Positions 17,311-61,024 of a stretch of 64,000 nt of DNA are shown here, piece by piece. The first letter of the stretch is position 1. Each line of letters opens with the position of its first letter. The notes beneath the pieces are model-generated. The model was not told where the DNA came from and searched no databases. It saw nothing but the letters and a program-made list of their open reading frames with translations. The position numbers and the translations under genes were made by a program. Source of the stretch: Manis javanica (Eukaryota; Chordata; Mammalia; Pholidota; Manidae); assembly GCF_040802235.1 (NCBI RefSeq), contig NC_133169.1:46941034-47005033 (forward strand). Direction: 5' to 3'.

Positions 17311-18189
17311 CCCTGGTGTTCCCATGGCCTGCAAGGACTGGAGAGGAGATTAAATGAAAACAACTCGGGAGGGACTATGTGGAGAGCTGAAGACCGGGTC
17401 TAGAAAATCACAGCATAAAAATGTAAGCCGTGGAAGAGTTAAGTGGCAATAAAGGGGGTAGAATAGATACACAAACCGAGAGAGTATGGTGTGATGGAAT
17501 TCAAAGACAGTCTTTTCAGTAGAAGGGATGAGTCCCCCATGTGAATATTGTGTATAATTCTAGTAATGTGAAAGAGAAAGCGGATCACCTGATACACTTG
17601 TGTTATTGGCAAGGGTTTGCAATGGAATAATGTAGAACAGCCTCTGAACCAGACGAAGGACAGAAAGCGGTCTAGAAATGTGGGACAGCTTCCAGACTTT
17701 GCTTTGAATAGCAGAAGAAAGATGAAATTTTATTAGGAGAGTTATGTGGGATTAAGGAGAATTACTTATCTTTTTTAATATGGATAATATCAATGCCTAT
17801 TTGGATTTTGACAACAATAGTGTGGTGTTGAAGGAGAAATCAATGACTCAACAGAGAAAAGAGGAATTCCAGGGTGCAGGCCTGTGAACAGTGTGCAAGC
17901 AGGCGCAATGCAGAGCCCCGCTGCAGGGAGGGGAGGAGCGGAAGTGCTTCCTCGCCAGAGGCAGGCAGGCTCAGTCGTGCCAGGGCTGGCAGGTCCCCTC
18001 ACACACGTGCGTCCCCCTGGCCGTTGGTACTTACTTTGTCCCAGTTTTTGGCTAGTCTGCAGTCTTTTTTAATTGAAATCTCTGCATCTGTGTCACCAAA
18101 AATGTAAAAAAATAGGTTGTGTGCTGTGGATAAAGTGAAGTTTCCTATGGCCAGGATTCTCACCTGGCCCTGGTCGACTTGCTCACTGC

Positions 18190-19425: not shown

Positions 19426-22025
19426 AATACATTCAGAAAGAACAGCCTTTCTCTCTCTCCTGTTTTAATCAGATTATGGTAGAAACTTTCAGTGATGTCA
19501 CAAGTTATATTTAACAGTTTTTAATTCTAAATAGTCTATTAATTCTTTAAGGCTGACTCTGTTTTAGACTGGCATATATAAAATGTCCAATGATATGAAA
19601 ATCTAGACTTTAGTGTAAAACATTATTTTAATAAGCAACCCACTTCCTGTTTATGTCATTCAATATGACACTCAATAGGAAGAATTTTTTAAATTCACTA
19701 TTATGATATGAGAAATATAATAGTGTGCAGTATATTTTCTGTAACCATTCATGAAAACAGTTAAGAGGTTGTCTGTATGTGTTAACATACAAGTTCTACA
19801 CTAAATTTAAAACACAAGATCCTTCAGCTATTCTTGTGAATAAAACACTAGGATAATTTCAGCATCTTAAAATATATCTTGTTTTATGAATTTCAGCTGA
19901 ACCACATACAGATTTCCTTCAAGTACAGGGCGATGTTCTGTTTTCTAATATCTTTCTTTCTTAATTTTCTAACTGTTGCAGCTTTGAATGTGAATAGTTT
20001 ATCTGGTTAGAAAGCAGGTCAGTAACAGAGTTTTGAAAACACAAACCTGTCCAAGCTAACTGTAGCCCGGCCTGCTTTGAAGTTTTATGCCAGGCTTTTC
20101 TACTTATAGAATTGTCTAGGCATTAAGAGATGGGCAGAAAAATGATGAAAACTCTTTTCTATTGAGTGGCATATGGAACACAGAGGAAATGCTTCTCAGG
20201 AGGTCCCTGGGGCCTTCTATCCTTGCAAGCGATTAGCTGCCAGGCTGGAAATGTGGCAAGTGCCAATAGAATGAAAAAATGTTTGCCTTCTTTGTAGTCC
20301 GTGAACTGAGCCACTACTTTAACTGTTTTGACTATTTTTCAATGTATCCCTTGTTAACATAATCAAGCAATTTATTTTTGATTATATATGTTAAAATTTT
20401 ATTAGGCTTTGGTTTACATTCTTACTCCATCAGTGTTCATTGAGTGCCAGTTATGTACCCATTCCTGTATTTGTCATTGATATTATGACATAATAGGAAT
20501 TAAAGGAAGTCATAAAGAATTAAGACATTTATCAGTCTGAAATTGATTGCATATGCTAATACATAACTAAAAATAGAGGGGATTGTGGAATTTAAGCAAT
20601 ATATTTATACAACAGACAACAAGGATAAGATATGCTTTTTGAGTTTAAGAATAAAATGGAGAGTAAAACTTGTTTTAACAGGCATACAACTATGAATAAC
20701 AAAATTGCATACTGAAATATAGAAAATTGTGTTAATTGTTTTCTATGAACCTGTCTAGCATATTGAAAAGATCTATGCATTTGAAAATCAAGTTCTGAAT
20801 AAAACAATTTGATAGCCAGGAATAGAAATATATTTATTTGAAGAATAATGCATTTCACTTTAGAGAACATTATATGTCTCTATATAATGAATTATTTAAT
20901 TCCTTATAAAAATATAATTATAAGGAAAAGAAGTAAGAGAAAAATAGAAAAACTGGTATAACTGCAAATAATATGAAGTTTTTTCTATTGAAATGCAATA
21001 TAATATATTTCTGTCTAATAGAATTCAAATCCTGTATTTGAGATGTCAAAGGAATAAGTATAATAAAATGGTGAATGATATTGAACTGGTGAAACATGAT
21101 AAAATAAAGAAGAAATATAAAACCAGAAAGAAAATCATGTTATGAGGAAAAGTAGAGTAAGCATTAGCTTTAAATGGTTTATGACTTGAAGACAGGGCTT
21201 GTCATCCTGAAGGAAAACATTTAAAAAATACATTTGGCAACCAAATAAAAGTGTCAAAAATAAAATGTATTTATTATGATTGAAAATATAACCAATGAAT
21301 AAGAAAAATATATAACCAGATCTAGTTTTCAAAAAATGACATAGCATTTTATATAGCTAAATATGTAATGCCAAAAAATGTAGTACAAGTATCAGGTGAA
21401 AATTCCTAGGAAATCTGGGCAAAAACATGTAGTCACCGCATAGAAGTAAATATGTAACAGACCTCTTAATTCTCTTTAATGATAAAAAGTGATAAGAAAA
21501 TAAGAGCAATATTTACCAAAGTTTTAATGAAATGTCTTTTAAATAGCAAAGCACTTCTTCAAGTTTTATAGAAGAAAATGAACTTCAATAAGTGATGCTT
21601 TAGGAAATATAGCATCCATATAAGCTTAATAAAATTGTTATAGGACAAACCTTAGCTGACTCAGTGATGAATGGAGAAAGTATGTTAACTACAATTATAA
21701 TGACACTTAGAATATTTAATAAAAGCACATGAGGAAATACACTGTGCATGACTAAATAAATGAAGTCATGGGAAGAAAAGAACACAAATGTCAGAAATCA
21801 TGAGCATATAGAAATAATAATATAACCAGCAAGGTCCAGAGGTTGGTGAGATGGATGTGCGAGTGTGAATGAGGAGCACTCAGCTCACCAACATGTACAA
21901 GTCTTCCTTGTCCTTTATGTCTTCATAAACCCAATCCTTTCTATGGAAGAACAACTCACTCACAATTTAAAGCTGTAGAAACACCTAACAGAGGTACAAT
22001 TAAGTTAATTACACATAAGTTTAAC

Positions 22026-22043
22026 TAAACTGGATGCCTTTTT
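22026..22043. repeat. Target-site duplication of composite A (3' side)
   Basis: TAAACTGGATGCCTTTTT here pairs with TAAATTGGGTGCGTTTTT at 29,895-29,912 (15 of 18 identical). The other arm of the inverted duplication carries the site once, at 35,138-35,155 on the opposite strand. Confidence 0.82.
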
Positions 22044-22062: not shown

Positions 22063-22373
22063 AAGAGGGCATCTCTCATATTTATTGATCAAATGGTTAT
22101 TAACAACAATAAAATTCTGTATAGGGGACTCACTGCACAATCATTAATCAACCCCAAGCCTAGTTCTCAACAGTCTCCAATCTTCTGAAGCATAACAAAC
22201 AAGTTTTACATGGTGCACAAATTCTTACATAGTGAGTAAGTTCTTACATGGTGAACAGTGCAAGGGAAGTCATCACAGAAACTTTCGGTTTTGATCACAC
22301 ATTATGAACTATAAATAATCAGGTCAAATATGAATATTTGATTTTTATAATTGATTTATATGTGAATCCCACA
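22063..22373 (-). repeat. LTR (U3-R) of composite A
   Basis: In element sense the LTR starts TGTGGGATTC right after a polypurine tract AAGGGAGAAA (22,374 upward), next to an (AAT)n stretch at about 22,381-22,412. It carries AATAAA (plus strand TTTATT at 22,081-22,086) and ends at GATGCCCTCTT, where the A tail begins. There is no U5, as expected for the 3' end of a polyadenylated retroviral RNA rather than a DNA provirus. Confidence 0.75.
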
Positions 22374-23083
22374 TTTCTCCCTTATTATTATTTTTATTAT
22401 TATTATTATTTTTAATAAAATGCTTAAGTGGTAGGAAGATGTAAGATAAAGGTAGAAAACATAGTTTAGTGCTGTAAAAGGGCAAATGTAGATGATCAGC
22501 TGTGTGCCTATAGACTAAGTATTAATCCAAGCTAAACAAGGGCAACAAAACATCCACAGATGCAGAAGATTTCTCCAAAACAGGGGTGTGGGGTTCTAAG
22601 CCTCACTTCTTTTGATCCCCAATTTCTCACCTGATGGCCCCCCTGCAACTGTGCCTGTCTTCGTTGTTCCTCCCTTGAGGAATCTTACCCGTCTCTGGCT
22701 AACCGATCATCTTCCGGGGCCATAAAGGGAAATGTAAAGTTGGTAAGTGAGAGAGAAGCAATGTTGTTTGAAAAAGTTAGCTTTTTACTTCTTTGCAGAT
22801 TTATGCCCTGTGGCTTTTATGACCAGCATTTGTCTTGAGGTATCTTTACCACTTGGAAGAATTATGATACGCGGTAATTTTGTTATGAGGCACGAATTCT
22901 ACTTAAAGGTTGTAATTAGGAAGGAAGAAGAAAACCTATAAAAGTAGCAGATGGAAGAAAACATGGGAAGATTGATTATTTCTTTGACATATTTTCTTGT
23001 AGAGTAACATAAGCATGTATAGGTTTTAAACTACTAATTAAATTGCGCACACACATTAACATAATAGGAATACAGCTACATAA

Positions 23084-23480
23084 CTAAAGCTGACCTACAA
23101 TTACCAGCCATCTCCAGTGAAACCAAGAAAACCAGTTAGGCACCCTAGGCATTTGTGAAACCTTATCAATGATATGATGGGTACTGTCTAACTGAATTTG
23201 AATAGTTTGAGAAAAATCAGACAAATTAAAACAACACATTCCTGGGAACTGTTCACATCCCATATGTTCTTTTAACAGTAGATAGTTTGTAGTCGCAAGA
23301 TTTTGGAGCACTGCAACTTGCACTTATCCTAATTCTTGGTTGAGTTCCGACAGTATAGATCCAGTCAAATTTGCTGTTTTACTGTATGCCCAGGCCAGCT
23401 TAGGTATCTCCTTCTTCATTCCAATGGCAAGTCCAGGAACCGCTGGGATGAATGCAGCTACAACTGCAACAGCGCCAGGA
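23084..23480 (-). pseudogene. ERV env transmembrane remnant in composite A
   Basis: This is the retroviral envelope transmembrane portion. A hydrophobic Ala/Val-rich segment resembling a fusion peptide lies at about 23,430-23,480. A helical segment follows, then a CX6CC motif (CEQFPGMCC), a second helix rich in Gln/Ile, and a Trp-rich stretch (NWFSWFHWRW) before the membrane anchor. Nothing upstream of the transmembrane part is present because the L1 lies there. A stop at 23,084-23,086 truncates the anchor. The CX6CC motif places it with gammaretrovirus/type-D-like envelopes. It has no start codon of its own and would lie in the 3' part of the composite RNA. Confidence 0.7.
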
Positions 23481-24186
23481 TCTTTGTTGAAGTTTTTTGA
23501 TGATCATCTTCTGGAATGACTCTTCCAGAGAATGTTGATGTTAGAAGTTCTTCTTCATATCGTATCTTAATTCATTTTCTAGGTAGCCAAATTAGGCTTT
23601 GATTCTCTGTATAAACACAAACAAACCCTTTGCCCACACTTTGATATGCCCTTTATATCATTGTGAAGAACTTATTGGAGATCCCCAAACAGGAACTTCT
23701 TTTATTTTTAAGAGAAAGGAATATTACCAGAAAAATGTACTTCCATAGCGGATCATCTGACACCCTTTAAATGATCAAAATTAAGGATATTTAAAGCATG
23801 CATTAATCACTGATTTACAGTTAGTTTTATCCTATCAGGGAATAATCCCACTTTTCTTCTCTTTTTTTTTGTTATCATTAATCTACAATTACATGAAGAA
23901 TATTATGTTCACTAGGCTCTCCCCTATACCAGGTCCCACCCACAAACCCCTTTACAGTCACTGTCCAACAGCATAGCAAAATGTTGCAGAATCACTACTT
24001 GTCTTCTCTGTGTTGTACAGCCCTCCCCTTTCTCCCACCCCCACCATTATACATGCTAATCATAATAAAGTCTTTCTTCTTCGCCGCCCTTATCCCTCCC
24101 TACCCACCCATCCTCCCCAGTTCCTTTCCCTTTGGTACCTGTTAGTCCATTCTTGGGTTCTGTGATACTGCTGCTGTTTTGTTCCT

Positions 24187-27100
24187 TCAGTTTTTCCTTT
24201 GTTCTTGTACTCCACAGGTGAGTGAAATCATTTGGCATTTCTCTTTCTCCACTTGGCTTATTTCACTGAGCATAATACCCTCTAGCTCCATCCATGTTGT
24301 TGCAAATGGTAGGATTTGTTTTCTTCTTATGACTGAGTAATATTCCATTGTGTATATGTACCACATCTTCTTTATCCATTCATCTACTGATGGAAACTTA
24401 GGTTGCTTCCAATTCTTGGCTATTGTAAATAGTGTTGCGATAAACATAGGGGTGCATCTGTCTTTTTCAAACTTGAGTGCTGCGTTCATAGGGTAAATTC
24501 CTGGGAGTGGTATTTCTCGGTCAAATGGTAAGTCTATTTTGAGGAATCTCCATGCTACTTTCCACAATGGTTGAGCTAATTTACATTTCCACCAGCAGTG
24601 TAGGAGGGTTCCCCTTTCTCCACAACCTTGCCAACATTTGTTGTTGTTTGTCTTTTGGATGATAGCCATCCTTACTGGTGTGAGGTGAATTCTCATTGTG
24701 GTTTTAATTTGCATTTCTCTGATAATTAGCAATGTGGAGCATCTTTTCATGTGTCTGTTGGCCATCTGAATTTCTTTTCTGGAGAACTGTCTGTTCAGTT
24801 ACTCTGCCCATTTCTTAATTGGATTATTTGTTTTTTGTTTGTTGAGGCATGTGAGCTCTTTATATATTTTGGATGTCAAGCCTTTATCGGATCTGTCATT
24901 TACAAATATATTCTCTCATTCTGTAGGGTACCTTTTTGTTCTATTGATGGGGTTTTTTGCTGTACAGAAGCTTTTCAGCTTAATATAGTCCCACTTGTTC
25001 ATTTTTGCTGTTGTTTTCCTTTCCCGGGGAGATATGTCCAAGAAAAGGTCATTCATGTTTATGTCTAAGAGGTTTTTGCTATGTTTTTTTCTAAGAGTTT
25101 TATGGTTTCATGACTTACATTCAGGTCTTTGATCCATTTTGAATTTACTTTTGTGTATGGGGCTGGACAATGGTCCAGTTTCATTCTCCTACATGTAGCT
25201 GTCCAGTTTTGCCAGCACCATCTGTTAAAGAGACTGTCATTTCGCCCTTGTATGTCTGTGGCTCCTTTATCAAATATTAATTGACCATATATGTTTGAGT
25301 TAATGTCTGGAGTCTCTAATCTGTTTCACTGGTCTGTGACTCTGTTCTTGTGCCAGTACCAAATTGTCTTGATTACTATGGCTTTGTAGTAGAGCTTGAA
25401 GTTGGGGAGTGAGATCCTCCCTACTTTATTATTCTTCCTCAGGATTGCTTTGGCTATTTGGGGTCTTTGGTGTTCCATATGAATTTTTGAATTATTTATT
25501 CCAGTTTGTTGAAGAATGTTGCTGGTAATTTGATAGAGATTGCATCAAATCTGTATATTGCTTTGGGCAGAATGGCCATTTTGACGATATTAATTCTTCC
25601 TAGCCATGAGCATGGGATGAGTTTCCATTTGTTAGTGTCCCCTTTAATTTCTCTTAAAAGTGACTTGTACTTTTCAGTATTAGGTCCTTCACTTCTTTGG
25701 TTAGGTTTATTCCTAGGTATTTTATTCCTTTTGATGCAATTGTGAATGGAATTGTCTTCTTGATTTCTCTTTCTATTTGTTCATTGTTAGTATATAGGAA
25801 AGCAACAGAATTCTGTGTGTTAATTTTGTATCCTGCAACTTTGCTGTATTCTGATATCAGTTCTGGTAGTTTTGGAGTGGAGTCTTTAGGGTTTTTTATG
25901 TACAATATCATGTCATCAGCAAATAGTGACAGTTTAATATCTGCTTTACCAATCTGGATTCCTTGTAATTCTTTGTTTTGTCTGATTGCCATGGCAAGGA
26001 CCTCCAGTACTATGTTAAATAACAGTGGGGAGAGTGGGCATCCCTTTCTTTTTCCCGATCTCAGAGGAAAAGCTTTCAGCTTCTCACTGTTTAGTTTAAT
26101 GTTGGCTGTGGGTTTAACATATATGGCCTTTATTATGTTGAGGTACTTGCCCTCTATTCCCATTTTGCTGAGAGTTTTTATCAAGAATTAATGTTGAATT
26201 TTGTCAAATGCTTTTTCAGCATCTATGGAGATGATCATGTGGATTTTGTCTTTCTTTTGTTGATGTGGTGGATGATGTTGATGGATTTTTGATTTTTGAA
26301 TGTTGTACCATCCTTGCATCCCTGGGATGAATCCCACTTGGTCATGGTGTATGATCCTTTTATTATACTGTTGAATTCTGTTTGCTAATATTTTATTTAG
26401 TATTTTTGCATCTACATTTATCAGGGATATTGGTCTGTAATTTTCTTTTTTGGTGGGGTCTTTGCCTGGTTTTGGTATTAGGGTGATGTTGGCTTTATAG
26501 AATGAGTTTGGGCATATTCCCTCCTCTTCTATTTTTGAAAACTAAGGAGAATGGGTATTATGTCTTCTCTGTGTGTCTGATAAAATTCCGAGGTAAATTC
26601 GTCTGGCCCGGGGGTTTTGTTCTTGGGTAGTTTTTTGATTACCATTTCAATTTCTTTGGTCATAATTAGTTTGTTTAACTTTTGTGTTTCTTCCTTGGTC
26701 AGTCTTGGAATGTTCTATTTTTCTAGGAAGTTGTCCATTTCTTCTAGGTTTTCCAGCTTGTTGGCATATAGGTTTTCATAGTAGTCCTTAATAATTGTTT
26801 GTATTTCTGTGGAGTCTGTCATGATTTTTCTGTTCTCATTTCTGCTTCTGTGGATTTGTGTTGATTCTCTTTTTCTCTTAATAAGTTTAGATAGCGGCTT
26901 ATCTATCTTGTATATTTTCTCAAAGAACCAGCTCTTGGTTTCATTAATTTTTGCTTGTTTTTTATTCTTCTCAGTTTTATTTATTTCTTCTCTGATCTTT
27001 ATTATGTCCCTCCTTCTGCTGACTTTAGGCCTCATTTGTTCTTCCTTTCCCAGTTTCAATAGTTGTGATGTTAGACTATTCATTTGGGCTTGTTCTTCCT

Positions 27101-28016
27101 TCTTCAACTGTGCCTGGATCACTATATACTTTCCTCTTAAGACTGCTTTCACTGCATCCCACAGACACTGGTGCTTTGTGTTGTTTTTGTCATGTTTCCA
27201 TATATTCCTTGATCTCTATTTTAATTTGTTCATTGATCCATTGATTATTTAGGAGCATGTTGTTAAGCCTCCATGTGTTTGTGAGCCTTCTTGTTTTCTT
27301 TGTCGAATTTATTTCTAGTTTTACACCATTGCGGCCTGAAAAATTGGTTGGTAGAATTTCAATATTTTAGAATTTACTGAGGCTCTTTTCGTGGGCTAGT
27401 ATGTGGTCTTTTCTGGAGAATGTTCCATGTGCACTTGAGAAGAATGTATATCCTGTTGCTTTTGGATCTAGACTTCTATGGATTTCTATTAGGTCCATCT
27501 GTTCTTCTGTGTTGTTCAGTTCCTGTGTGTCCTTACTTATTTTCTGCCCAGTGGATCTATCCTTTGGGGTGAGTGGCATGTTGAAGTCTCCTAAAATGAA
27601 TGTATTGCAGTCTATTTCCCTCTTTAGTTCTGTTAGTATTTGTTTCACATATGCTGGTGCTCATCTATTTGGTGCATATATATTTAGAATGGTTATATCC
27701 TCTTGTTGGACTGAGCCCTTTATCATTATGTAGTGTCCTTCTTTTTCTCTTGTTACATTCTTTGTTTTGAAGTCTATTTTGTCTGATATTAGTACTGCAA
27801 CCCCTGCTTTTTCTCGCTCTTGTTTGCCTGAAATATGTTTTTCCATCCCTTGACTTTTAGTCTGTGTATGTCTGTGGGTTTGAGGTGAGTTTCTTGTAAG
27901 CAGCATGTAGATGGGTCTTGCTTTTTTATCCATTCTATTACTCTGTGTCTTTTGATTGGTGCATTCAGTCCATTTACATTTAGGGTGACTATTGAAAGAT
28001 ATGTACTTATTGTCAT
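24187..28016 (-). pseudogene. L1 ORF2p (copy A), broken
   Basis: This is the L1 endonuclease and reverse transcriptase. The start ATG is at 28,016. The endonuclease region shows TLNVNGLNAP and QETHL and later GDFN; the reverse transcriptase region shows [10 protein letters not shown] (catalytic Asp pair) near 25,910; the C terminus has a Cys/His cluster ([18 protein letters not shown]) near 24,600. Breaks include a one-base deletion near 27,815 and a TGA at 27,661-27,663 (codon 119, just after YAPN), shared with copy B, and further breaks between 25,650 and 24,770. The protein cannot be made from this copy. Confidence 0.9.
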
Positions 28017-28321
28017 TGCAGGCTTTAAATTCAAGGTTACCAAAGGTTCAAGGTTAGCATCTTTAGTATCTTACTGCCTAACTTAGCTCAGTTATTGAGC
28101 TGTTATATTCACTGTCTGGAAATTCTTTTCTTCTCGCCCTTCTTATTCCTCCTCCTCCATTCTTCATATGTTGTGTGTTTGTTCTGTGCTCTTTTTAGGA
28201 GTGCTTCCATATAGAGCAGTCCCTGTAAGATGCCCTGTAGAGGTGTTTTGTGGGAAGCAAATTCCCTCAGCTTTTGCTTGTCTGGGAATTGTTTAATTCC
28301 TCCATCATATTTAAATGATAA

Positions 28322-29068
28322 TCATGCTGAATACAGTATCCTTGGTTCACGGCTCTTTTGTTTCAATGCATTAAGTATATCTTGCCATTCTCTTCTGTCC
28401 TGTAAGGTTTCTGTCGAGAAATCTGATGATAGCCTGATGGGTTTTCCTTTATAGGTTACCTTTTTCTCTCTAGCTGCCTTTAAAACTCTTTCCTTGTCCT
28501 TAATCTTTGACATTTTAATTATTATGTGTCTTTGTGTTGCTCTCCTTGGGTCCTTTCTGTTGGGAGTTCTGTGTATTTCCGTGGTCTGTTCAATTATTTC
28601 CTCCCCCAATTTGGGGAAGTTTTCAGCAATTATTTCTTCAAAGACACTTTCTGTCCCTTTTTCTCTCTCTTCTTCTTCTGTTACCCCTATAATACGGATA
28701 TTGTTCCTTTTGGATTGGTCATGTAGTTCTCTTAATATTGTTTCATTCCTGGAGATCCTTTTGTCTGGCTTTATGTCAGATTCTGTGCATTCCTGTTCTC
28801 TGGTTTCTATACCATCAGTGGCCTCTTGCATCTTATCTATTCTGCTTATAAATCTTTCCAGAATTTGTTTTACTTCTGTAATCTCCTTCCTGTCATCTGT
28901 GATCTCCCTCCAGACTTCATCCCATTGCTCTTGCATATTTCTCTGCATCTCCATCAGCATGTTTATGATTTTTATTTTGAATTCTTTTTCAGGAAGATTG
29001 GTTAGATCTGTCTCCTTTTCTGGTGTTGTCTCTGTGATCTTGGTTTGCCTGTAATTTTGCATTTTCAT
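28322..29068 (-). pseudogene. L1 ORF1p (copy A), C-terminal stop
   Basis: This is the L1 RNA-binding chaperone that trimerises through a coiled coil. It starts at ATG 29,068 (MKMQNYRQTK), followed by an acidic/Lys-rich heptad region (residues about 30-100), the RRM-like region (around NNIRIIGVTEEEE) and the C-terminal domain (RHIIIKMSKIKDKERVLKAAR). It ends early at TGA (28,322-28,324), where copy B has an Arg codon (CGA), so about 14 residues are lost. The change is a CpG-type transition. Otherwise the frame is open for about 248 codons. Confidence 0.88.
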
Positions 29069-29894
29069 GGTGATAGAATTAGTTTGCAGAGCTGGGACGA
29101 TTGACGGTTGGAAGAATTTCCCTTCTTGTCTTCTTCTCCTGGGAGAACAGCAACCTCTATTGACTTGTCCTGGGCAGCTGCGTGCAGACAGGTCTTTTGA
29201 TTCCTGCCCATTTGCAATGGAGTTTATCTCTGCTGTTGCTGTGGTCAGGGCCTGGCTCTGGGTGCTGCTCCAAAATGGTGGAGCCATGTTGGAGGGGGAG
29301 CGACTGGTGGGCTATTTATCTCCATGAGGGGCCTCCGTCCTCCCTGTTCCCCAGGGGTTAGAGTTCCCAGAGATCCCCAGATTCCCTGCCTCCTGACTAA
29401 GTGTCCCGCCCTGTTCCTTTAGGACTTCCAAAAAGCACTAGCTAAAACAAAACAAAACAAAACAAAAAAGCAAAAATAAATAAATAATTTTTAAAAAAAG
29501 AAAAATTGCTCACTTTACTTTGTCCTCAGGTGCTAGCCTCAGGGACCCGCTCAGAGATCTTGCTGTCCTGTTTCCATAGTTTCCAGGACCCCACACATGC
29601 ACTTTGTCTGTGCTCTGGTCCTGATGGCTGGGGTTGAGTGTTCAGCTGTCCTGGGCTCCCTCTCCCTCCCTGCTCTGATTCCTCTCCTCCTGCCAGCAGC
29701 TGGGGGGAAGGGTGCTCAGGTCCCGCTGGGCCGAGGCTTATATCTTACCCCCTTCGCAAAGCGTGGATGTGGTTTTGATGTTGTCCTGTGTCCTCTGGTC
29801 TCAATTTTAGAAAGAGTTGTCTTTGTTATATATTCATAAATATATGTGGTTTTGGGAGGAGATTTCCACTGCTCTACTCATGCTGCCATCTTTC

Positions 29895-29912
29895 TAAATT
29901 GGGTGCGTTTTT
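29895..29912. repeat. Target-site duplication of composite A (5' side)
   Basis: TAAATTGGGTGCGTTTTT; partner of 22,026-22,043. The sequence continues at 29,913 with GAATGG, and the empty site in the other arm continues in the same way. Confidence 0.82.
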
Positions 29913-43618: not shown

Positions 43619-43876
43619 GAATTTGGGGATCAACAGAGGTGAGGCTCAGAACCTCACACCCCCTGCTTTGAGAGAAATCTTCTGCATCCGTGGATGTTTT
43701 GCTGCCCTTGTCTAGCCTGGATTAATACTTAGTCCATAGGCACACACCTGATCATCTGATCATCTACATTTGCCCTCTTACAGCACTAAACTATGTTTTC
43801 TACCTTTATCTTGCATCTACCTACCACTTCAGCATTTTATTAAAAATAATAATAATAATAATAATAAAGAGAGAAA

Positions 43877-44199
43877 TGTGAGATCAACATATAAATCAAG
43901 TATAAAAATCAAACGAATATTCATATTTGACCTGATTGTTTATAGTTCATAATGCGTGATCAAAACCGAAAGTTTCTGTGATGACTGCCCTTGTACTGTT
44001 CACCATGTAAGAATTTATTCACTATGTAAGAATTCGTTCACAATGTAAGAACTTGTTCATTATGCTTCAGAAGATTGGAGACTGACGAGAATTAGGCTTG
44101 AGAGGGATTAATGATTGGGCATTGAGCATTGACTCCCCTATACTGAATTTTATTGTTGTTAACAACCATTTGATCAATAAATATGAGAGATGCCCTCTC
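43877..44199 (+). repeat. LTR (U3-R) of copy C
   Basis: It starts TGTGAGATC directly after the polypurine tract AAAGAGAGAAA (43,866-43,876), carries AATAAA at 44,176-44,181 and ends GATGCCCTCTC. It lacks U5. The same LTR segment ends copies A and B. Confidence 0.78.
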
Positions 44200-47035: not shown

Positions 47036-49460
47036 ACTTTTAAAAAATTGAAGTATAATCAATACACAATATTATATTAGTTTCAGAAGTACAACATAGG
47101 GATTCCACAATTATAGATGTCACAACATGCCCCCCCAGAGTAGGTATAGTTGCGCCCTGTCACCACACAAAGCTATTACAATAGTACCGACCTTATTCCC
47201 TATGCTGTACTTTACATTCCTGTGGCATGAGTATTTTTTTACTGGAAGTTTGTACCTCTTTATCCCCTTTACCTCTTTCACACACCTTCTCACCCCTCCC
47301 TTATAGCAACCACCAGTTTGTTCTCTGTATTTATGAGTCTATTCTTATTTTATGTGTTTGTTTCTTTAGATTCCACATATAAGTGAAATCATATGGTATT
47401 TGGCTTTCTCTGTTAGACTCATTTCACTCACCAGTCTGGATGCCTGTTATCTCTGTGTGTTGTCCAGTGCTACGTTGAATAAAGGTGGGAAGAGTGGGCA
47501 TTCTTGTCTTGTTCCCGATCTTAGAAAAAATATTTTCAGCTGTTTGCCATTGAGTATGATGTTGGCTGTGGCTTTTTTGTATATGGCCTTCATTATATTG
47601 AGATATGTTCACTCTGTACCTACCCTGTTGAAAGTTTTTATCATGGTTGAATCTTAAATTTCTCAAATGCTTTTTCAGCATCTGCTGGTATAATCATGAG
47701 ATTTTTATCCTTCCTTTTGTTAATGTGTGTGTCACATTGATGGATGTGCAGATAGTGTATCATCCAGGCACCTCTCTAATAAATCCCACTTGTTGATGGA
47801 TGGTCCTTATGATATATTTTTGAATTTGGTTTGCTAATATTTTGTTGCATATTTTGGCATCTATGTTCATCAGGGATATTGCTCTGTAATTTTTTTGTAG
47901 TGTCTTTGTCTGGTTTTTGTGTTAGAGAGATGGTGGCCTCAGAATGAGTTAGGAAGTGTTCCCTCCTCCTCTATTTTTGGAAAACTTTAAGAAGGATGCA
48001 TATTAGCTCTTCTTTATATGTTGGGAGGATTCAGCTAATCGACTTTCTACCACTTTGTGTCTCTCCTCATTTTGGAACCCCTATTATGAGAATAATGTTC
48101 CATCTGGAGTTCTTGCAGAGCTCTCTCAGTATCCTCCCATTTTTCTATTTTTTCCCTCTGTTCCTCATCTTGTTAACTCTGCACAGCCCTACCTCCCAGC
48201 TCACCAGTGCCTCTGCCTGGTGCAGTCCTCTGCCTCCTGTGGCCCACTGTTCATTCTACTGCATTTTTCACTGTGGGTATTTATTCTGAAGCTCTCAATG
48301 ACTCCCACATATATTGTGCCTCTGTTAAAGTTCTCAGTCTGATTCCCAATTCTTTCCCCACTTCAGTGAGCATCTTTATACCTGTATGCTGAATTCTTTT
48401 TAGGGAAATTGCTTATTTCTAGTTTGTATAGGAATGTTCTGGTGTTTTGTCTTGTTCTTCTGTTTGGAACATATTCCTCTGCCTCCTCATTCTGTCTGGG
48501 CTTCTGGGCTTCCTCCTTTGAATTAGATGCCAGTCTCCTGGCCTGGAGAGTCGTGTACTTATGCAGCAGGCATCTTGTGGGGCCCACAGCTCACACCCCC
48601 TGCTCTCATGCTCTGGTTCTCTTCTGCAGCTGACACTTGCTGAGGTGGGGCTGTGGGAGGGGCCAACCTCCTGCTTGTCTCCTGGTGAGGATGGCTCCCC
48701 ATTGTTGACCTCTGAGTGCCCTTTTCTGCGACATGCAGCTGTTTCTCCCAGGGTGTGCTATGGGTAGGATGGCCTTGTATGTCTGAAAGCAATGGCCGAG
48801 CACCCCTGGGGAGTGTACCTGGGGAGGCAGGGCTCCAGGGAAGGCAGGGCCTGAGCCAGCAGGGCAGGGGGAGGGCTTCAGAGATGGCCCCACTACTGCC
48901 TGGCTGCAATCATCTGCGGGAATGCTGGAAAGTGTCCTTCTCCTCCATAGACGGCTCCCTCAGAGCTGTGGCCCTCTGCACACTTCCTAAGGCTAGAAAG
49001 CCTTTCAAACGTCTCCTCTGTGTTGGGTCTCAGAGGGACCCACAAAGCACTCCAGTCCTCCCCAAGTGATGGAGTCTCAGCCCCCCTCAGTGCTCCACGC
49101 TCTCCACTGTCCCACCCTGTCAGCCTCCAAAGCCAGTGCAATGGGGAATTGTCTTTCTGAATCAGATCCCCGAAGCCAGGCATGCCGGATCCCTGGGCAC
49201 GGACACCTTCCCGCTCTGGGCCTCTTGCTCCCGCCCGCGGGCTCAGAGGGTCCAGGACGCAGCGGCTCTGCCTTCCCGGTGCGGGCTTCTCCTCCTCGCC
49301 AGGGGCAGGCGGTCTGCTCTGCAGCCTTCGGGGAGCTCCTGGTTAGGTGCCCTCATCCCAGCTGCTCCTGGCGTGTGCGGGGAGGCGGTCATCACGGTGA
49401 CGGCCTGTCCTGCCATCGTCCTCCGACTGCTTCTGGTTAATGTTTAATTCTCTCATCCCA
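47036..49460 (-). mobile_element. Old L1, rearranged and decayed
   Basis: From left to right in antisense order there is an L1M 3' end (47,040-47,120), a piece of ORF2 C-terminal wording (47,330-47,430), a reverse-transcriptase-region piece (47,440-47,990), an ORF1-like piece (about 48,000-48,500, AATAATGTTCCATCTGGAG) and a GC-rich 5'UTR-like part (48,520-49,450). Large internal parts are missing. Its many open frames in the GC-rich part are not genes. Confidence 0.6.
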
Positions 49461-53644: not shown

Positions 53645-53659
53645 AAAAATGGTTGAATT
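53645..53659. repeat. Target-site duplication of composite B (5' side)
   Basis: AAAAATGGTTGAATT; identical to 61,010-61,024. It is preceded by TT, so the nick site reads TT/AAAA, the classic L1 endonuclease target. Confidence 0.92.
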
Positions 53660-53996
53660 TGAGGCGGAGCCAGGATGGCGGCATGAGTAGAGCAGCGGAA
53701 ATCTCCTCCCAAAACCACATATGCCTATGAAAATATAACAAAGACAACTCTTCCTAAAATAGAGACCAGAGGACACAGGACAACATCCAGACCACATCCA
53801 CACCTGTGAGAACCCAGTGCCTCACGAAGAGGGTAAGATACAAGCCCCGGCCTGGCGGGACCTGATCACCCCTCCCCCCGGCTCCTGGCGGGTGGAGAGG
53901 AATCAGCAGGGAGGGAGAGAGAGCGCAGGACTGCTGAACACCCAGGCCCAGCCATCTGGAACAGACCACAGACACAGTGCATGCGTGGGGTCCTGG

Positions 53997-54315
53997 ATAC
54001 TAGGGAAACAGGGTGGCAGGACTGGTGAGCGGGTGCCTGAGGCCGACGCCGGAGAACAAAGAAATGGGAACGTTTTTTTTTTTTTTGGCGAGTGCTTTTT
54101 GGAAGCCTTAAAGGGACAGGGACCCCAATACTAGGGAAACAGGGCAGCAAGACCGGTGATCGGGTGCCTGAGACTGGTGCCTGAGGACAAAAAAAATCGC
54201 GTGTTTTTCCCTTTTTTATTTTTAAATTATTTATTTAATTTTTTTTTCTCTTTTGTTGTTGCTGTTGTTGTTTTGGTTTGGAGAGTGCTTTCTGGAAGTC
54301 TTAAAGGAGCAGGAC
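53997..54315 (+). repeat. Two 5'UTR monomers in the L1 of copy B
   Basis: A unit beginning TACTAGGGAAACAGGG and ending with GGAAGCCTTAAAGG(G)ACAGG occurs at 53,997-54,128, then again at 54,129 to about 54,315 in diverged form. Copy A has only one such unit. This resembles monomeric L1 promoters, where repeat number can affect transcription. Confidence 0.65.
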
Positions 54316-54666
54316 AGGACACTTAGCCCAGAGGCAGGGAATCTGGGAATCTCTGGGCACTCTAACCCCCTGGGCAACAGGGAGCACAGAGGCCCCTTAC
54401 AGAGATAAATAGCCTCCCGGCCGCTCCCGCTCCAACGGGGTTCCACCATATTTGAGGAGCAGCGCGAGCTAGGCCACGCCCACAGCAACAGTGAAGATAA
54501 ACTCCATTGCAACCGGGCAGGTAGCAAAAGCCCTCTCTGTGCACAGCTGCCAAGCAAAAGCCACTAGAGGTCGCTATTCTCCCAGGAAAGGAAGGCCACA
54601 AACCAACAATAAGTGAAGCTCTCCCACCTGTCACTCGTACAAGCTCTGCAAACTATCTCTCTCACC

Positions 54667-55484
54667 ATGAAAAGGCAAAACTACAGGCAGACAAAGATCA
54701 CAGAGACAACATCTGTGAAGGAGACAGACATAACCAGTCTTCCTGAAAAAGAATTCAAAATAAAAATCATGAACATGCTAACAGAGATGAAGAGAAAAAT
54801 GCAAGAGCAATGGGATGAGATGCAGAGAAAAATGCAAGAGCAATGGGATGAAGTCCGGAGAGAGATCACAGATGTCAGAAAGGTGATCACAGAAGTGAAA
54901 CAAACCCTGGAAGGATTTATAAGCAGAAGGATAAGATGCAAGAGGCCATTGAAGGAATAGAAATTAGAGAACAGGAACATATAGAAGCTGACATAGAGAG
55001 AGATAAAAGGATCTTCAGGAATGAAACAACACTAAGAGAACTATGTGACCAATCCAAAAGGAATAATATGTGTACTATAGTGGTACCAGAAGAAGAAGAA
55101 AGAGGAAAAGGGATAGAAAGACTCTTTGAAGAAATAATTGTTGAAAACGTCCCCAAACTGGGGGAGGAAATAATTGAACAGACCACGGAAATACACAGAA
55201 CCCCAAACAAAAAGGATCCAAGGAGGACAACACCAAGACACATAATAATTAAAATGACAAGGATCAAGGACAAGGAAAGAGTTTTAAAGGCTGCTAGAGA
55301 GAAAAAGTTCACCTATAAAGGAAAACCCATCAGGCTAACATCAGAATTCTGGACAGAAACCCTACAGGCCAGAAGAGAATGGCATGATATACTTAATGCA
55401 ATGAAACAGAAGGGCCTTGAACCAAGGATACTGTATCCAGCACGACTATCATTTAAATATGATAGCAGGATTAAACAATTCTAA
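54667..55484 (+). pseudogene. L1 ORF1p (copy B), one frameshift
   Basis: This is the L1 RNA chaperone. It starts at ATG 54,667 (MKRQNYRQTK). The coiled-coil part contains an 11-residue tandem duplication, with MQEQWDE appearing twice. A one-base deletion near 54,917-54,925 shifts the frame, compared with copy A. The second frame then runs open through the RNA-binding region (RNNMCTIVVPEEEE) and the C-terminal domain to the stop at 55,482-55,484 after RIKQF, which is the natural C terminus. About 271 codons in all. Confidence 0.88.
54794..54859 (+). repeat. 33-bp tandem duplication in ORF1 coiled coil
   Basis: Unit GAAAAATGCAAGAGCAATGG plus 13 more bases occurs at 54,794-54,826 and again from 54,827. 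It adds 11 residues in frame. Eleven residues equal three turns of a hendecad, so the helix could remain continuous. Copy A has one unit. Confidence 0.85.
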
Positions 55485-55750
55485 GACAAGCAAAAGCTGA
55501 GTGAATTTGCTTCCCACAAATCACCTCTGCAGGGCATCTTACAGGGACTGCTATAGACGGGAGCACTCCTAAAAAGAGCACAGAAAAAACACAAAACATA
55601 TGAAGAATGGAGGAGGAGGAATAAAAAGAGAGAGAAGAAAAGAATCTCTAGACAGTGTATATAACAGCTCAATAAGTGAGCTAAGTTAGGCAGTAAGATA
55701 CTAAAGAGGCTAACCTTGAACCTTTGGTAACCACGAATTTAAAGCCTGCA

Positions 55751-58700
55751 ATGACAATAAGTACATATCTTTCAATAGTCACCCTAAATGTAAATGGACT
55801 TAATGCACCAATCAAAAGACACAGAGTAATAGAATGGATAAAAAAGCAAGACCCATCTATATGCTGCATACAGGAAACTCACCTCAAACCCAAAGACATG
55901 CACAGACTAAAAGTCAAGGGATGGAAAAACATATATCAAGCAAACAACAGTGAGAAGAAAGCAGGGATCGCAGTACTAATATCAGACAAAATAGACTTCA
56001 AAACAAAGAAAGTAACAAGAGATAAAGAAGGACACTACATAATGATAAAGGGCTCAGTCCAACAAGAGGATATAACCATTCTAAATATATATGCACCCAA
56101 CATATGAGCACCAGCATTTGTGAAACAAATACTAACAGAACTAAAGAGGGAAATAGACTGCAATGCATTCATTTTAGGAGACTTCAAAACACAACTCACC
56201 CCAAAGGATAGATCCACCGGGCAGAAAAATAAGTAAGGACACACAGGCACTGAACAACACACTAGTACAGATGGACCTTATAGACATCTATAGAACTCTA
56301 CATCCAAAATCAACAGGATACATATTATTCTCAAGTGCACATGGAACATTCTCCAGAATAGGCCACATACTAGCTCACAAAAAGAGACTCGGTAAATTCC
56401 AAAATATTGAAATTCTATCAACCAATTTTTCAGACCACAAAGGTATAAAACTAGAAATAAATTCTACAAAGAAAAGAAAAAGGCTCACAAACACATGGGG
56501 TCTTAACAACATGTTTCTAAATAATCAATGCATCAATGAACAAATCAAAACAGAGATCAAGGAATATACAGAAACAAATGACAACAACAATACAAAGCCC
56601 CAAATTCAGTGGGATGCAGTGAAAGCAGTCATAAGAGGAATGTATATAGCGATCAAGGCACACTTGAAGAAGGAAGAACAATCCCAAATGAATACTCTAA
56701 CATCACAATTATGGAAACTGGAAAAAGAAGAACAAATGAGGCCTAAAGTCAGCAGAAGAGGGACATAATAAAGATCAGAGAAGAAATAAACAAAATTGAG
56801 AAGAATAAAACAAGAGCAAAAATCAATGAAACCAACAGCTGGTTCTTTGAGAAAATAAACAAAATAGATAAGCCTCTAGCAAAACTTATTAAGAGAAAAA
56901 GAGAATCAACCCAAATCAACAGAATCAGAAATGAGAATGAAAAAATCACGACAGACTCCACAGAAATACAAAGAATTATTAAAGACTACTATGAAAACCT
57001 ATATGCCAACAACCTGGAAAACCTAGAAGAAATGGACAACGTCCTAGAAAAATACAACTTCCCAAGACTGACCAAGGAAGAAACACAAAAGTTAAACAAA
57101 GCAATTACAAGCAAAGAAATTGAAACGGTAATCAAAAAACTACCCAATAATAAAACACCAGGGCCGGACGGATTTACCTTGGAATTTTATTAGACACACA
57201 GAGAAGACATAATACCCATTCTCCTTAAAGTGTTCCAAAAAATAGAATAGGAGGGAATACTCCCAAACCCATTCTATGAAGCCAACATCACCCTAATACC
57301 AAAACCAGGCAAAGACCCCACCAAAAAAGAAAATTACAGACCAATATCCCTGATGAATGTACATGCAAAAATACTCAATAAAATATTAGCAAACAGAATT
57401 CAACAGTATATCAAAAGGATCATACACCATGACCAAGTGGGAATCATCCCAGGGATGCAAGGATGGTACAACATTTGAAAATCCATCAACATCATCCACC
57501 ACATCAACAAAAAGAAAGACAAAAACCACATGATCATCTCCATAGATGCTGAAAAAGCATCTGACAAAATTCAACATCCATTCATGATAAAAACTCTCAG
57601 CAAAATGGGAATAGAGGGCAAGTACCTCAACATAATAAAGGCCATATATGATAAACCCACAGCCAGCATTATACTGAACAGCGAGAAGCTGAAAGCTTTT
57701 CCTCTGAGATCGGGAACTCGACAGGGATGCCCACTCTCCCCACTGTTATTTAACATAGTACTGGAGGTCCTAGCCATGGCAATCAGACAAAACAAAGAAA
57801 TAAAAGCAATCCAGATTTTTAAAGAAGAAGTTAAACTGTCACTATTTGCAGATGATATGATACTGTACATAAAAAACCCTAAGGACTCCACTCCAAAACT
57901 ACTAGAACTGATATCGGAATACAGCAAAGTTGTAGGATACAAAATTAACACACAGAAATCTGTAGCTGTCCTATACAGTAACAATTAACCAATAGAAAGA
58001 GAAATCAGGAAAACAATTCAATTCACAATTGCATCAGAAAAATAAAATACCTAGGAATAAACCTAACCAAAGAAGTGAAAGACCTATACCCTGAAAACTA
58101 CAAGTCACTCTTAAGAGAAATTAAAGGGGACACGAACAAATGGAAACTCATCCCATGCTCATGGCTAGCAAGAATTAATATCGTCAAAATGGTCATTCTG
58201 CCCAAAGCAATATACAGATTTGATGCAATCCCTATCAAATAACCAGGAACTTTCTTCAACAAACTGGAACAAATAATTCAAAAATTCATATGGAAACACC
58301 AAAGACCCCAAATAGCCAAAGTAATCCTGAAAAAGAAAAGTAAAGTAGGGGGTATCTCAATCCCCAACATCAAGCTCTACTACAAAGCCATAGTAATCAA
58401 GACAATTTGGTACTGGCACAAAAACAGAGCCACAGACCAGTGGAACAGATTAGAGACTCCAGAAATTAACCCAAACATATATGGTCAATTAATATTTGAT
58501 AAAGGAGCCATGGACATACAATGGCAAAGTGACAGTCTCTTCAACAGATGGTGCTGGCAAAACTGGACAGCTACATGTAGGAGAATGAAACTGGACCATT
58601 GTCTAAACCCATATACAAAGGTAAACTCAAAATGGATCAAAGACCTGAATGTAATTTATGAAACCATTAATCTCTTGGAAAAAAACATAGGCAAAAACCT

Positions 58701-58870
58701 CTTAGACATAAACATAAGTGACCTACTCAGCCATAAGAAGAGGGAAAATCCTACCATTTGCAGCAACATGGATGGAGCTGGAGAGTATTATGCTCAGTGA
58801 AATAAGCCAAGCAGAGAAAGAGAAATACCAAATGATTTCACTCATCTGAGGAGTATAAGAACAAAGGAAA
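55751..58870 (+). pseudogene. L1 ORF2p (copy B), broken and internally deleted
   Basis: This is the L1 endonuclease/reverse transcriptase. The start ATG is at 55,751. The endonuclease region shows TLNVNGLNAP and QETHL, but the GDFN motif reads GDFK. The reverse transcriptase core shows [10 protein letters not shown] near 57,840. Breaks: TGA at 56,105-56,107 (codon 119, shared with copy A), a one-base insertion near 56,228, a one-base loss near 56,757, a TAG near 57,191, and a deletion of about 700 bp near 58,734 that removes the Cys-rich C-terminal region. It cannot encode an active protein. Confidence 0.9.
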
Positions 58871-59591
58871 AACTGAAGGAACAATTAGCAGCAGAATTAC
58901 AGAATCCAAGAATGGACTAACAGGTACCAAAGGGAAAGGAACTGGGGAGGATGGGTGGGCAGGGAGGGATAATGGGGGGAGGAATAAAGGGGGTATACAG
59001 ATTAGCATGCATGGGGGGGAGGGAGAAAGGGGAGGGAGGGCTGTATAACACAGAGAGGACAAGTAGTGATTCTACAACATTTTGCTATGCTGATGGACAG
59101 TGACTGTAATGTGGTTTTTAGGGGGGACTTGGTATAGGGGAGAGCATAGTAAACATAGTATTCTTCATGTAAGTGTAGATTAAAGATTAAAAAAAAGAGA
59201 GAAAGAAAAGGGGGATTACTCCTTTATAGGATAAAACTATTGGTAAATCAAAGATTAATGCATGCTTTAAATATCCTTAATTTTGATCACTTAAAGGGTG
59301 TCAGATGATCGGCTATGGAGGTACTCTTTTCTGATAATATTCCTTTCTCTTAATAAAAAAAAAAAGCAGTTCCTGTGTGCTGACCTCCAATGAGTTCTAC
59401 ACAGTGGTATAGAGGGCATGTCAAAGTGTGGGCAAAGGGTCTGTATGTTTTTATGTAGAAGTTCAAGGCCTAGCTTGAGTACCCAGAAAATGAACTAAGA
59501 TACGATATGAGGAGGAGCTTCTGGCATCAGCACTCTCTGTAGGACTCGTGCCGGGGGATGATCATCAAAAAGCCTCCACAAGGATCCAGGC

Positions 59592-60056
59592 AATGCTGCG
59601 GTTGTGGCTGCGTCCATCCCACCGTTTCCTGGACTTGCCATTGGAATGAGGAGGGAGATGTCTAGGCTGGCATGTGCATACAGTGAGACATCGAATTTGA
59701 CCAGATCTGTACTGTTGGAACTCAACCAGGAGTTGGGAGTGGTGCAAGTTGTAGCATTCCAAAATCTTATGACTATAGACTATCTACGGTTAAAAGAACA
59801 TATGGGATGTGAACAGATCCCAGAAATGGGTTGCTTTAATTTGTCTGATTTCTCTCAGACTGTTCAAGTACAGTTGGACAATATCCATCATATCATAGAC
59901 AAATTTTCACGAAGGCCTAGGGTGCCTAACTGGTTTTCTTGGCTTCACTGGAGATGGCTGGTAATTATAGATTTGCTTTGTTTATGTCACCGTATTCCTA
60001 TTATGTTAATATGTGTGCACAAGTTAGTTAGTAGTTTAAAACCTATACATGCTTAA
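59592..60056 (+). pseudogene. ERV env transmembrane remnant in composite B
   Basis: This is a retroviral envelope transmembrane part open for about 155 codons to its stop at 60,054-60,056. A hydrophobic Ala/Val-rich start resembles a fusion peptide, followed by a helical region, the motif CEQIPEMGC in place of the CX6CC seen in copy A (first Cys of the CC pair replaced by Gly), a second helix, a Trp-rich membrane-proximal stretch and a hydrophobic anchor (VIIDLLCLCHRIPIMLICV). There is no surface subunit and no ATG at its start. It sits far downstream of ORF2 in the composite RNA, so translation is unlikely. The disrupted CC argues against a working protein. Confidence 0.72.
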
Positions 60057-60689
60057 GGTACTCTACAAGAAGATATGTCAAAGAAATAATCAATCCTCCC
60101 ATGTTTTCCTCCATATGCTACCTCTATAGCTTTTCTTCTTCCTTCCTAATTACAACCCTTAAATAGAATTCATGCCTCATATCGAATTTACCGAGCATCA
60201 TAATTCCTCCAGGTGGTAAAGATACCTCGAGACAAATGCTGGCCATAGAAGCCACAGGGCATAAATCTGTAAATAAGTAAAAAGCTAACCTTTTCAAACA
60301 ATATGGCTTCTCCCTCAGTTACCAACTTTACATTTCCCTGTATGGCCCTGGAAGATGACTGGTTAGCCAGAGACGGGTAAGATTCCTCAAGGGAGGAACA
60401 ACCTAAGACAGGCACAGTCGCAGGAGGGCCATCAGCTGAGAAATCGGGGAACAACAGTGGTGAAGCTTAAAACCTCACCCTCCCTGTTTTGAGAGAAATC
60501 TTCTGCATCCGTGGATGTTTTATTGCCCTTGTCTAGCTCGGATTAGCACATAGTCTACAGGCACACACCTGATCATCTACAATTGCTCTCTTACAACACT
60601 AAACTATATTTTCTACCTTTATCTTGCATCTACCTACCACTTCAGCATTTTATTAAAAATAAAAATAATAATAATAATAAAGGGAGAAA

Positions 60690-61005
60690 TGTGGGATCCA
60701 CATATAAATCAAGTATAAAAATCAAACAAATATTCATATTTGACCTGATTGTTTATAGTTCATAATGCATGATCAAAATCGAAAGTTTCTGTGATGAATG
60801 CCCTTGTACTGTTCACCATGTACATTCACTATGTAAGAATTCGTTCACCATGTAAGAATTTGATCATTATGCTTCAGAAGATTGGAGACTGACGAGAATT
60901 AGGCCTGAGATGAATTAATGATTGTGCATTGAGCATTGACCCCCTCTACAGAATTTTATTGTTGTTAACAACCATTTGATCAATAAATATGAGAGATGCC
61001 CTCTC
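60690..61005 (+). repeat. LTR (U3-R) of composite B
   Basis: It starts TGTGGGATCC right after AAAGGGAGAAA (60,679-60,689), carries AATAAA at 60,982-60,987 and ends GATGCCCTCTC before the A tail. U5 is absent. The non-coding ERV sequence between env and the tract (60,057-60,678) includes an (AAT)n stretch at about 60,660-60,679. Confidence 0.78.
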
Positions 61006-61009
61006 AAAA

Positions 61010-61024
61010 AAAAATGGTTGAATT
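61010..61024. repeat. Target-site duplication of composite B (3' side)
   Basis: AAAAATGGTTGAATT; identical to 53,645-53,659. The first A residues overlap the poly(A) tail. Confidence 0.92.

Follow-up and report, generated by a model that had tools for sequence, protein, structure and literature searches.

A LINE-1 lineage of Manis javanica that very probably ends in the 3′ part of an endogenous retrovirus and moves with it as one unit

INTRODUCTION

How does a retroviral 3′ end come to stand at the end of a LINE-1 (L1) element, and is such a locus an accident or a member of a family? The question is raised by positions 53645-61024 of a 64-kb stretch of the Manis javanica genome (the whole stretch is referred to here as the window). 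At this locus, termed copy A, an L1 is followed by part of an endogenous retrovirus (ERV), consisting of an env remnant, a polypurine tract (PPT) and the U3 and R segments of a long terminal repeat (LTR), and then by an A tail. A first-pass annotation had explained this arrangement by an RNA that started at the L1, ran into the ERV and was copied as a whole by the L1 machinery. The DNA of the host genome, analyzed here, contains one L1-ERV joint and whole units at dispersed sites, which carry L1-type duplications and an A tail that starts where U5 would start, and it shows signs of recent spread. We are highly confident that copy A belongs to an L1 lineage that has the 3′ end of a retrovirus as its own and is moved by L1 as one unit.

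RESULTS

Copy A is a single L1-ERV insertion

The outermost sequences of copy A are a perfect 15-bp duplication, AAAAATGGTTGAATT, which occurs at just two sites in the 64 kb when both strands are considered. Its alignment score of 15 compares with a maximum of 14 among 300 random flank pairs. The same duplication is absent from the L1/ERV junction, where no separate search for another duplication was made. Domains of L1 ORF1 and ORF2 (open reading frames 1 and 2) are present, though both frames are broken, and the retroviral part was recognized by a match of the transmembrane (TM)-like region of env. The joint itself carries an A-rich source-L1 tail, while a second A tail and the duplication lie at the outer end, as in L1 3′ transduction. 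Traits of a provirus, namely two LTRs, U5, a primer site and a duplication of 4-6 bp, are missing, since copy A ends with R, an A tail and a 15-bp duplication. The direct joining of L1 to env, PPT, U3 and R and the single duplication around the entire unit, both noted in the first-pass annotation, were thereby upheld, and the locus is confirmed as a single L1-ERV insertion with the duplication outside the whole unit. Its description as a full L1 had to be dropped: besides the broken frames, some 707 bp near 58724, at the end of ORF2, are missing from copy A, whereas a second unit in the window, copy B, has retained them. More than 500 bp of this segment is kept in 43 of 50 junction loci read genome-wide (see below), and two of the seven exceptions are copy A itself.

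One joint is dispersed throughout the genome

Taken alone, copy A would be compatible with a one-off L1 3′ transduction, and local or segmental DNA duplications might mimic a family. The host genome (2,559,957,944 bases in 63 contigs) was searched with a 211-bp junction probe, which gave 1,539 first-look candidates. Of these, 40 were scored, and all 40 matched across the joint at 94-100% and were spread over 19 contigs. The R end followed by six A residues was found at 17,389 places exactly and at 28,218 places with up to three mismatches, the reversed-pattern control giving 0 in either case; both totals take in truncated copies and a number of segmental duplicates, and most of the places are known by pattern only. 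No match to the LTR-end patterns was obtained in viral contigs or in prokaryote contigs.

Fifty junction loci were read: the probe supplied 30, and an exact ERV-start pattern the other 20. Both sets include copy A, so that 49 are distinct, and L083 and L084 seem to duplicate each other. In every one of the 50, single-base variants aside, the L1 3′ untranslated region (UTR) is followed by an A-rich/GAAA stretch and then by the same start of the ERV. The exact ERV-start pattern occurs at 27 places, 20 of which have an exact L1 probe match upstream; the three that were read among the remaining seven also carry L1. Nor does the young-type L1 as a rule end at its own 3′ end: 2,574 of 2,644 exact matches to young-type L1 3′ ends (97%) continue into the ERV, and the other 70 may be mutated or L1-only. 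Since the joint is the same in all loci read, one founding fusion fits best as the account of it.

A second sample, the C1 set, consisted of the first 30 places on contig C1 together with two R-end places followed by non-A bases. Nine C1 copies were read at the joint; the ERV start was present in 9/9 and L1 lay directly upstream in 8/9, one copy being truncated inside the A-rich stretch. The 32 places of the set fall into 25 flank clusters, so some of them do duplicate one insertion, as local duplication would have it. Even so, 25 distinct 3′ flanks are incompatible with copies confined to larger DNA duplications. A single transduction or DNA duplication as the source of the family has to contend with thousands of places, many contigs and unrelated flanks, and with different duplications in copies A and B and in four or more other loci. 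On the strength of these distinct duplications it was rejected, and we consider it extremely improbable.

The founding event is a separate matter. The first fusion might have arisen by a template switch from ERV RNA to L1 poly(A) during reverse transcription, with the same later spread. The A-rich stretch at the joint would be expected under template switching and read-through alike, and template switching by L1 has been described (PMC6500023). Read-through past the L1 signal is, however, the commoner 3′ route, most L1 transductions being described as 3′ events (PMC12593883), and we regard a template switch as unlikely, if by no means negligible. A founder produced by read-through is preferred here.

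Duplications lie outside the whole unit at other loci

The ten best-scoring probe matches after copy A were analyzed with pieces fetched at both ends. An L1 5′ end with the same start as in copy A was found in seven of them, and for six of these the 3′ end was also available, that of the seventh being out of reach. Three two-ended loci gave outer duplications of 16/16, 15/15 and 17/18 by script; a fourth has one of 11/12, recognized on visual inspection of its flanks. The target of the fifth was another L1, and a 14-bp overlap in L1 coordinates points to a duplication there. Hence four duplications are clear, one is deduced from the overlap and one is weak. Apart from this weak case and copy C, which is unclear, the insertions fit the L1 pattern of an A-rich target site, a duplication of roughly 7-20 bp and an A tail.

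Within the window, copy B is a second whole unit. It is flanked by a degraded duplication (16/19), equalled by 2 of 300 null pairs. Copy C comprises the last ~580 bp of the unit and ends on the same base as copy A, followed by an A tail; it has no clear duplication, 76 of 300 null flank pairs being equally good. The window thus holds three copies, and copy A is not unique.

Several observations weigh against movement as one unit. No L1 5′ end was present within the fetched piece at three of the ten loci, and the duplication is weak at one of the six with both ends. At the locus with the 14-bp overlap the best match of the script was just 7 bases long, and at the 11/12 locus the script favored another match of 9 bases. 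Copy C and some other copies are ERV-only truncations. The prediction that other copies would have duplications outside the whole unit was nevertheless borne out, with several distinct sequences, as was the dispersal of the junction in many copies, by probe, pattern counts and loci read.

The LTR and PPT of the unit could also suggest that the ERV is the driver, a provirus holding an L1 being spread by retroviral integration or by LTR promoters. In a study of Chinese pangolin ERVs, one ERV is described that holds an L1 between ENV and the 3′ LTR (PMC12584738). Units that run from the L1 5′ end to R plus an A tail, between duplications of about 12-19 bp, do not agree with such a mode of spread, which we rejected for these reasons and consider scarcely credible.

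Three further loci have unusual ends. L066-L068 (C1:2241789-2242560) are three U3-R-A units that terminate a single copy at a spacing of ~370 bp, which would suit repeated addition of the LTR end. L032 is a U3-R piece from the LTR start, without an A tail, within an older L1. L109 (copy L073) is truncated and has an R-end-like A-rich stretch at its 5′ end before the joint, possibly the result of a template jump.

The A tail begins at the R/U5 border

In copy A, an AATAAA ends 18 bases upstream of the A tail. The last stretch of the L1 part contains one ATTAAA and no AATAAA. A search with an LTR-start pattern excluding the PPT gave 19 places, three of which were read in 171-base pieces. In two of the three the R end continues into U5; the third (L117) shows no R end in its 171-base piece. 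In one of the two U5-bearing LTRs, U5 is followed by a primer site of the tRNA-Lys type (16/18) and then by a leader. R/U5 joints were found at 518 places with up to three mismatches (control, 3), some of them tightly clustered on contig C10. The R/U5 joint being kept at these places, the A tail of the chimera is seen to start where U5 would begin, and the parent to be a normal ERV with far fewer copies. A probe that required non-A bases at set positions after the R end yielded two places, neither with U5; this probe is blind to the U5-bearing LTR L119, which differs by one base and has a U5 A at a position that the probe forbade. About 12 R/U5-like places at G000:C10:1.48-2.12 Mb follow one another in regular steps of ~45 kb and probably belong to a large tandem array carrying the LTR.

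Spread has apparently continued until very recently

Age was estimated from the C1 set over the last 1.1 kb. Between flank clusters, 27 of 300 pairs are less than 1% apart and 79 of 300 less than 2%. Two of the 27 close pairs (L066/L067 and L080/L082) represent one array or one duplicated insertion. The closest remaining pair is 0.27% apart, and copies with unrelated flanks differ by as little as 0.3-1.1%. A tails are 6-24 residues long in 21 copies of this sample. For dating, a substitution rate of 2.2e-9 per site per year was assumed. At this rate, a divergence of 0.44-1.07% would amount to some 1-2 million years; for the pair A and B, which differ by 12.5%, the common source would date to about 28 million years ago. 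The spread of the unit thus appears to have continued until very recently.

The ERV part contains a stretch homologous to an NXF1 intron

Between the TM-like env frame and the PPT of copy A lies a stretch of ~0.6 kb. Its positions 60330-60484 (155 bp) are 83% identical (128/155, E 6e-41) to part of the NXF1 gene in the host, and copy B matches the same stretch at 81% (125/154). This part of NXF1 lies in an intron, since an exon with a match to NXF1 chains (E 1e-15) precedes it and an NTF2-like exon follows it. A constitutive transport element (CTE) is described in NXF1 intron 10 (PMC4174252), and an AAGACA loop is given as a mark of the CTE (PMC4330393). The host stretch would correspond to intron 10, and the ERV part apparently carries an NXF1-type RNA-export element. 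In copy A, AAGACA lies in an internal loop of the predicted hairpin. An X-linked-looking NXF relative matches copy B weakly (39/52, E 5e-04). Together with the copy B match to NXF1, this suggests that the CTE-like element is probably of host NXF origin. A cluster of NXF-like matches was observed at G000:C19:92.6-97.5 Mb, on a 142-Mb contig that is presumably the X chromosome.

For divergence analysis, copies A, B and C were combined with 78 fetched copies in copy A coordinates; 27 that were less than 2% from a kept copy were removed, leaving 54, a filter that dropped real young insertions along with duplicates. Net divergence between A-type and older copies was -0.03% at 60361-60440 and 1.5-7.8% in other ERV regions; the two groups were hand-picked by distance to copy A, and the A-type loci cover little of the LTR. 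Variation within the A-type at 60361-60440 was similar to that elsewhere (4.0% vs 4.4-5.7%). The 54-base segment at 60363 was the one most often unchanged among 222 (22/50 copies), and the segment exactly on the CTE-like core ranked 18th (16/50 copies unchanged). The left loop was intact in 31/50 copies and the right loop in 45/50. Both loops were kept in 17/21 copies of the C1 sample, from which 11 of the 32 loci (duplicates or the two non-A R-end places) had been dropped and in which two of the 21 form one array.

Other results count against a functional CTE. The hairpin of copy A folds no better than shuffled sequences (z -1.05, 29/200 as good). The best fold of copy B is a different one, without the AAGACA internal loop (z -0.27, 73/200 as good). 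There is one AAGACA in 59210-61005, so that a two-fold symmetric pair of loops is absent, and other short stretches are about as quiet.

The TM-like frame matches TM chains of the ASLV type (avian type; E 8.9e-08). A Pfam search with it returned no retroviral family, just DUF3878 below the cut-off. Rfam gave no match at its gathering threshold in the window, two matches in the ERV part being far below it. The protein collection yielded 36 candidates for the TM-like frame, 26 of which are relatives; each of these lies on an ENA contig of 518-3,481 bases, probably host DNA in metagenomes. Of the 54 rows of the divergence set, 33 were gap-free in this region and 26 of these were without a stop. 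As a measure of purifying selection on TM, the net ratio of nonsynonymous to synonymous differences (pN/pS) was 0.47 in frame, with a wide bootstrap range of 0.26-0.97, and 0.88-0.90 in the other frames.

These data bear on whether the ERV tail is passive baggage, the success of the lineage coming from elsewhere, such as the 5′ UTR or the ORFs. The env part diverges freely (net 6-8%), the TM ratio has the wide range just given, and the CTE-like stretch is not the sole quiet one, all of which would suit mere baggage. Retention of the joint by 97% of young-type L1 ends and the near-zero net divergence of the CTE-like stretch speak against it, and on balance we doubt this explanation, though it has to be taken seriously. 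A contribution of the retroviral tail to the spread is quite conceivable: the captured LTR poly(A) signal and a host-derived NXF1-type export element may have made this L1 lineage the dominant young retrotransposon of the species, its RNA being exported by the retroviral route. Judged from sequence, we advance this only tentatively.

Organization of the three copies

The features of the window are listed in Table 1.

Table 1. Features of the L1-ERV units in the 64-kb window; copies B and C were located by BLAST of the unit against the window.
Feature	Position	Strand	Basis and remarks
5′ target-site duplication, copy A	53645..53659	+	flank read; only 2 occurrences in window
L1 5′ UTR, copy A, two ~131-bp units (53988, 54119)	53660..54612	+	sequence read
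L1 ORF1 remnants; RBD-like and dsRBD-like domains in 54936-55484	54613..55484	+	domain search
L1 ORF2 remnants; endonuclease 55724-56107, RVT_1 57530-57988	55724..58800	+	ORF2 end by eye
L1 3′ UTR and A/GAAA-rich remnant of founder L1 tail	58801..59209	+	
ERV env remnant; TM-like ORF 59604-60056	59210..60056	+	homology search
CTE-like stretch homologous to host NXF1 intron; loops at 60372, 60405	60330..60484	+	
PPT	60679..60689	+	by eye
LTR U3-R, AATAAA at 60982, without U5	60690..61005	+	U3 start by eye
A tail, merging into the A's of the duplication	61006..61009	+	
3′ target-site duplication, copy A	61010..61024	+	flank read
Copy B, second whole L1-ERV unit	22063..29893	-	BLAST; main blocks 86-89% identical, 5′ end 81%
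Copy B 5′ duplication, 16/19 identical to partner	29894..29912	-	
Copy B 3′ duplication	22025..22043	-	
Copy C, truncated ERV end only, same R end and A tail	43619..44199	+	

The 5′ UTR of copy A contains two tandem units of ~131 bp (53988-54217), and the spacing in L035 and L041 suggests at least three, in an arrangement reminiscent of promoter monomers. The ORF1 region has a tandem duplication of 33 bp at 54784-54849 (97% identical). An older L1 fragment, 76-81% identical, lies at 47366-48021 of the window.

DISCUSSION

The proposal of an RNA that starts at the L1, reads into the ERV and is copied by L1 has gained support from the dispersed joint, the outer duplications and the tails at the R/U5 border. 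In this model, an L1 would have become situated ahead of an ERV segment made up of env/TM, the CTE-like stretch, PPT, U3 and R. Transcripts initiated at the 5′ end of the L1 would read through the weak L1 tail as far as the R/U5 border of the LTR, where the poly(A) site would be cleaved, and target-primed reverse transcription by L1 would copy the chimeric RNA into new sites. The product carries its own poly(A) signal and would hence breed true, so that the chimera could become a prolific young L1 lineage of the host genome. Young copies may be autonomous, and the spread may have been aided by the poly(A) signal of the LTR as well as by the NXF1-type export element.

An exchange of 5′ UTRs among L1 lineages has been proposed (PMC13174262, section 22). 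Here an L1 lineage gained a long retroviral 3′ end, and the joint has stayed the same ever since copies A and B shared a source. Two classes of retroelement are united in one breeding unit, which has scattered LTR poly(A) signals, and probably RNA-export signals too, over the genome. Its natural variants open the ending of L1 RNA and its exit from the nucleus to direct testing. Dfam contains Manis javanica entries (PMC12584738). Among the papers listed in the literature survey, which excluded subscription papers, Repbase and Dfam, no named L1 family with such a retroviral 3′ end was found.

Among known systems, SVA and SINE-R elements of hominids have a comparable 3′ module, consisting of the env 3′ end and 3′ LTR of an ERV (HERV-K10) with an A tail and moved by L1 (PMC12593883); the ERV env-U3-R end with A tail of the present unit is of this kind. 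Unlike SVA, the 5′ module is an L1 with ORF1 and ORF2 remnants rather than hexamer, Alu-like and VNTR (variable number of tandem repeats) parts, and the ERV is a different one. The copies start with L1; no dedicated search for Alu-like or VNTR parts was made. LAVA (L1-Alu-VNTR-Alu) contains an L1 piece and, judging by its name, no ERV end (PMC4432496, PMC7353768). L1 chimeras in which L1 is joined to other RNAs are likewise similar (PMC13174262). They differ in being mainly 5′ fusions, found in hg38, and the main text of that report contains neither 'ERV' nor 'endogenous retrovirus'. The chimeric L1 of another report is a synthetic construct (PMC6500023). With L1 3′ transduction, in which read-through to a downstream poly(A) signal has been described (PMC6500023, PMC12593883), the unit would share this read-through, and it shares an A-rich source tail at the joint and an outer duplication. 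In contrast to the usual transduction, the transduced LTR end has here become a fixed component of the lineage.

HERV-W processed pseudogenes start in the R region of the 5′ LTR and are not known to contain L1, whereas the 5′ part of the present unit is L1. They resemble it in that ERV RNA was mobilized by L1 (PMC5537654, PMC5016936). Finally, the CTE-like stretch resembles the CTE of NXF1 intron 10 and the Mason-Pfizer-type CTE in having AAGACA in a hairpin internal loop (PMC4330393, PMC4174252), and differs from both in that it forms a single loop unit instead of a symmetric pair and is carried on an L1.

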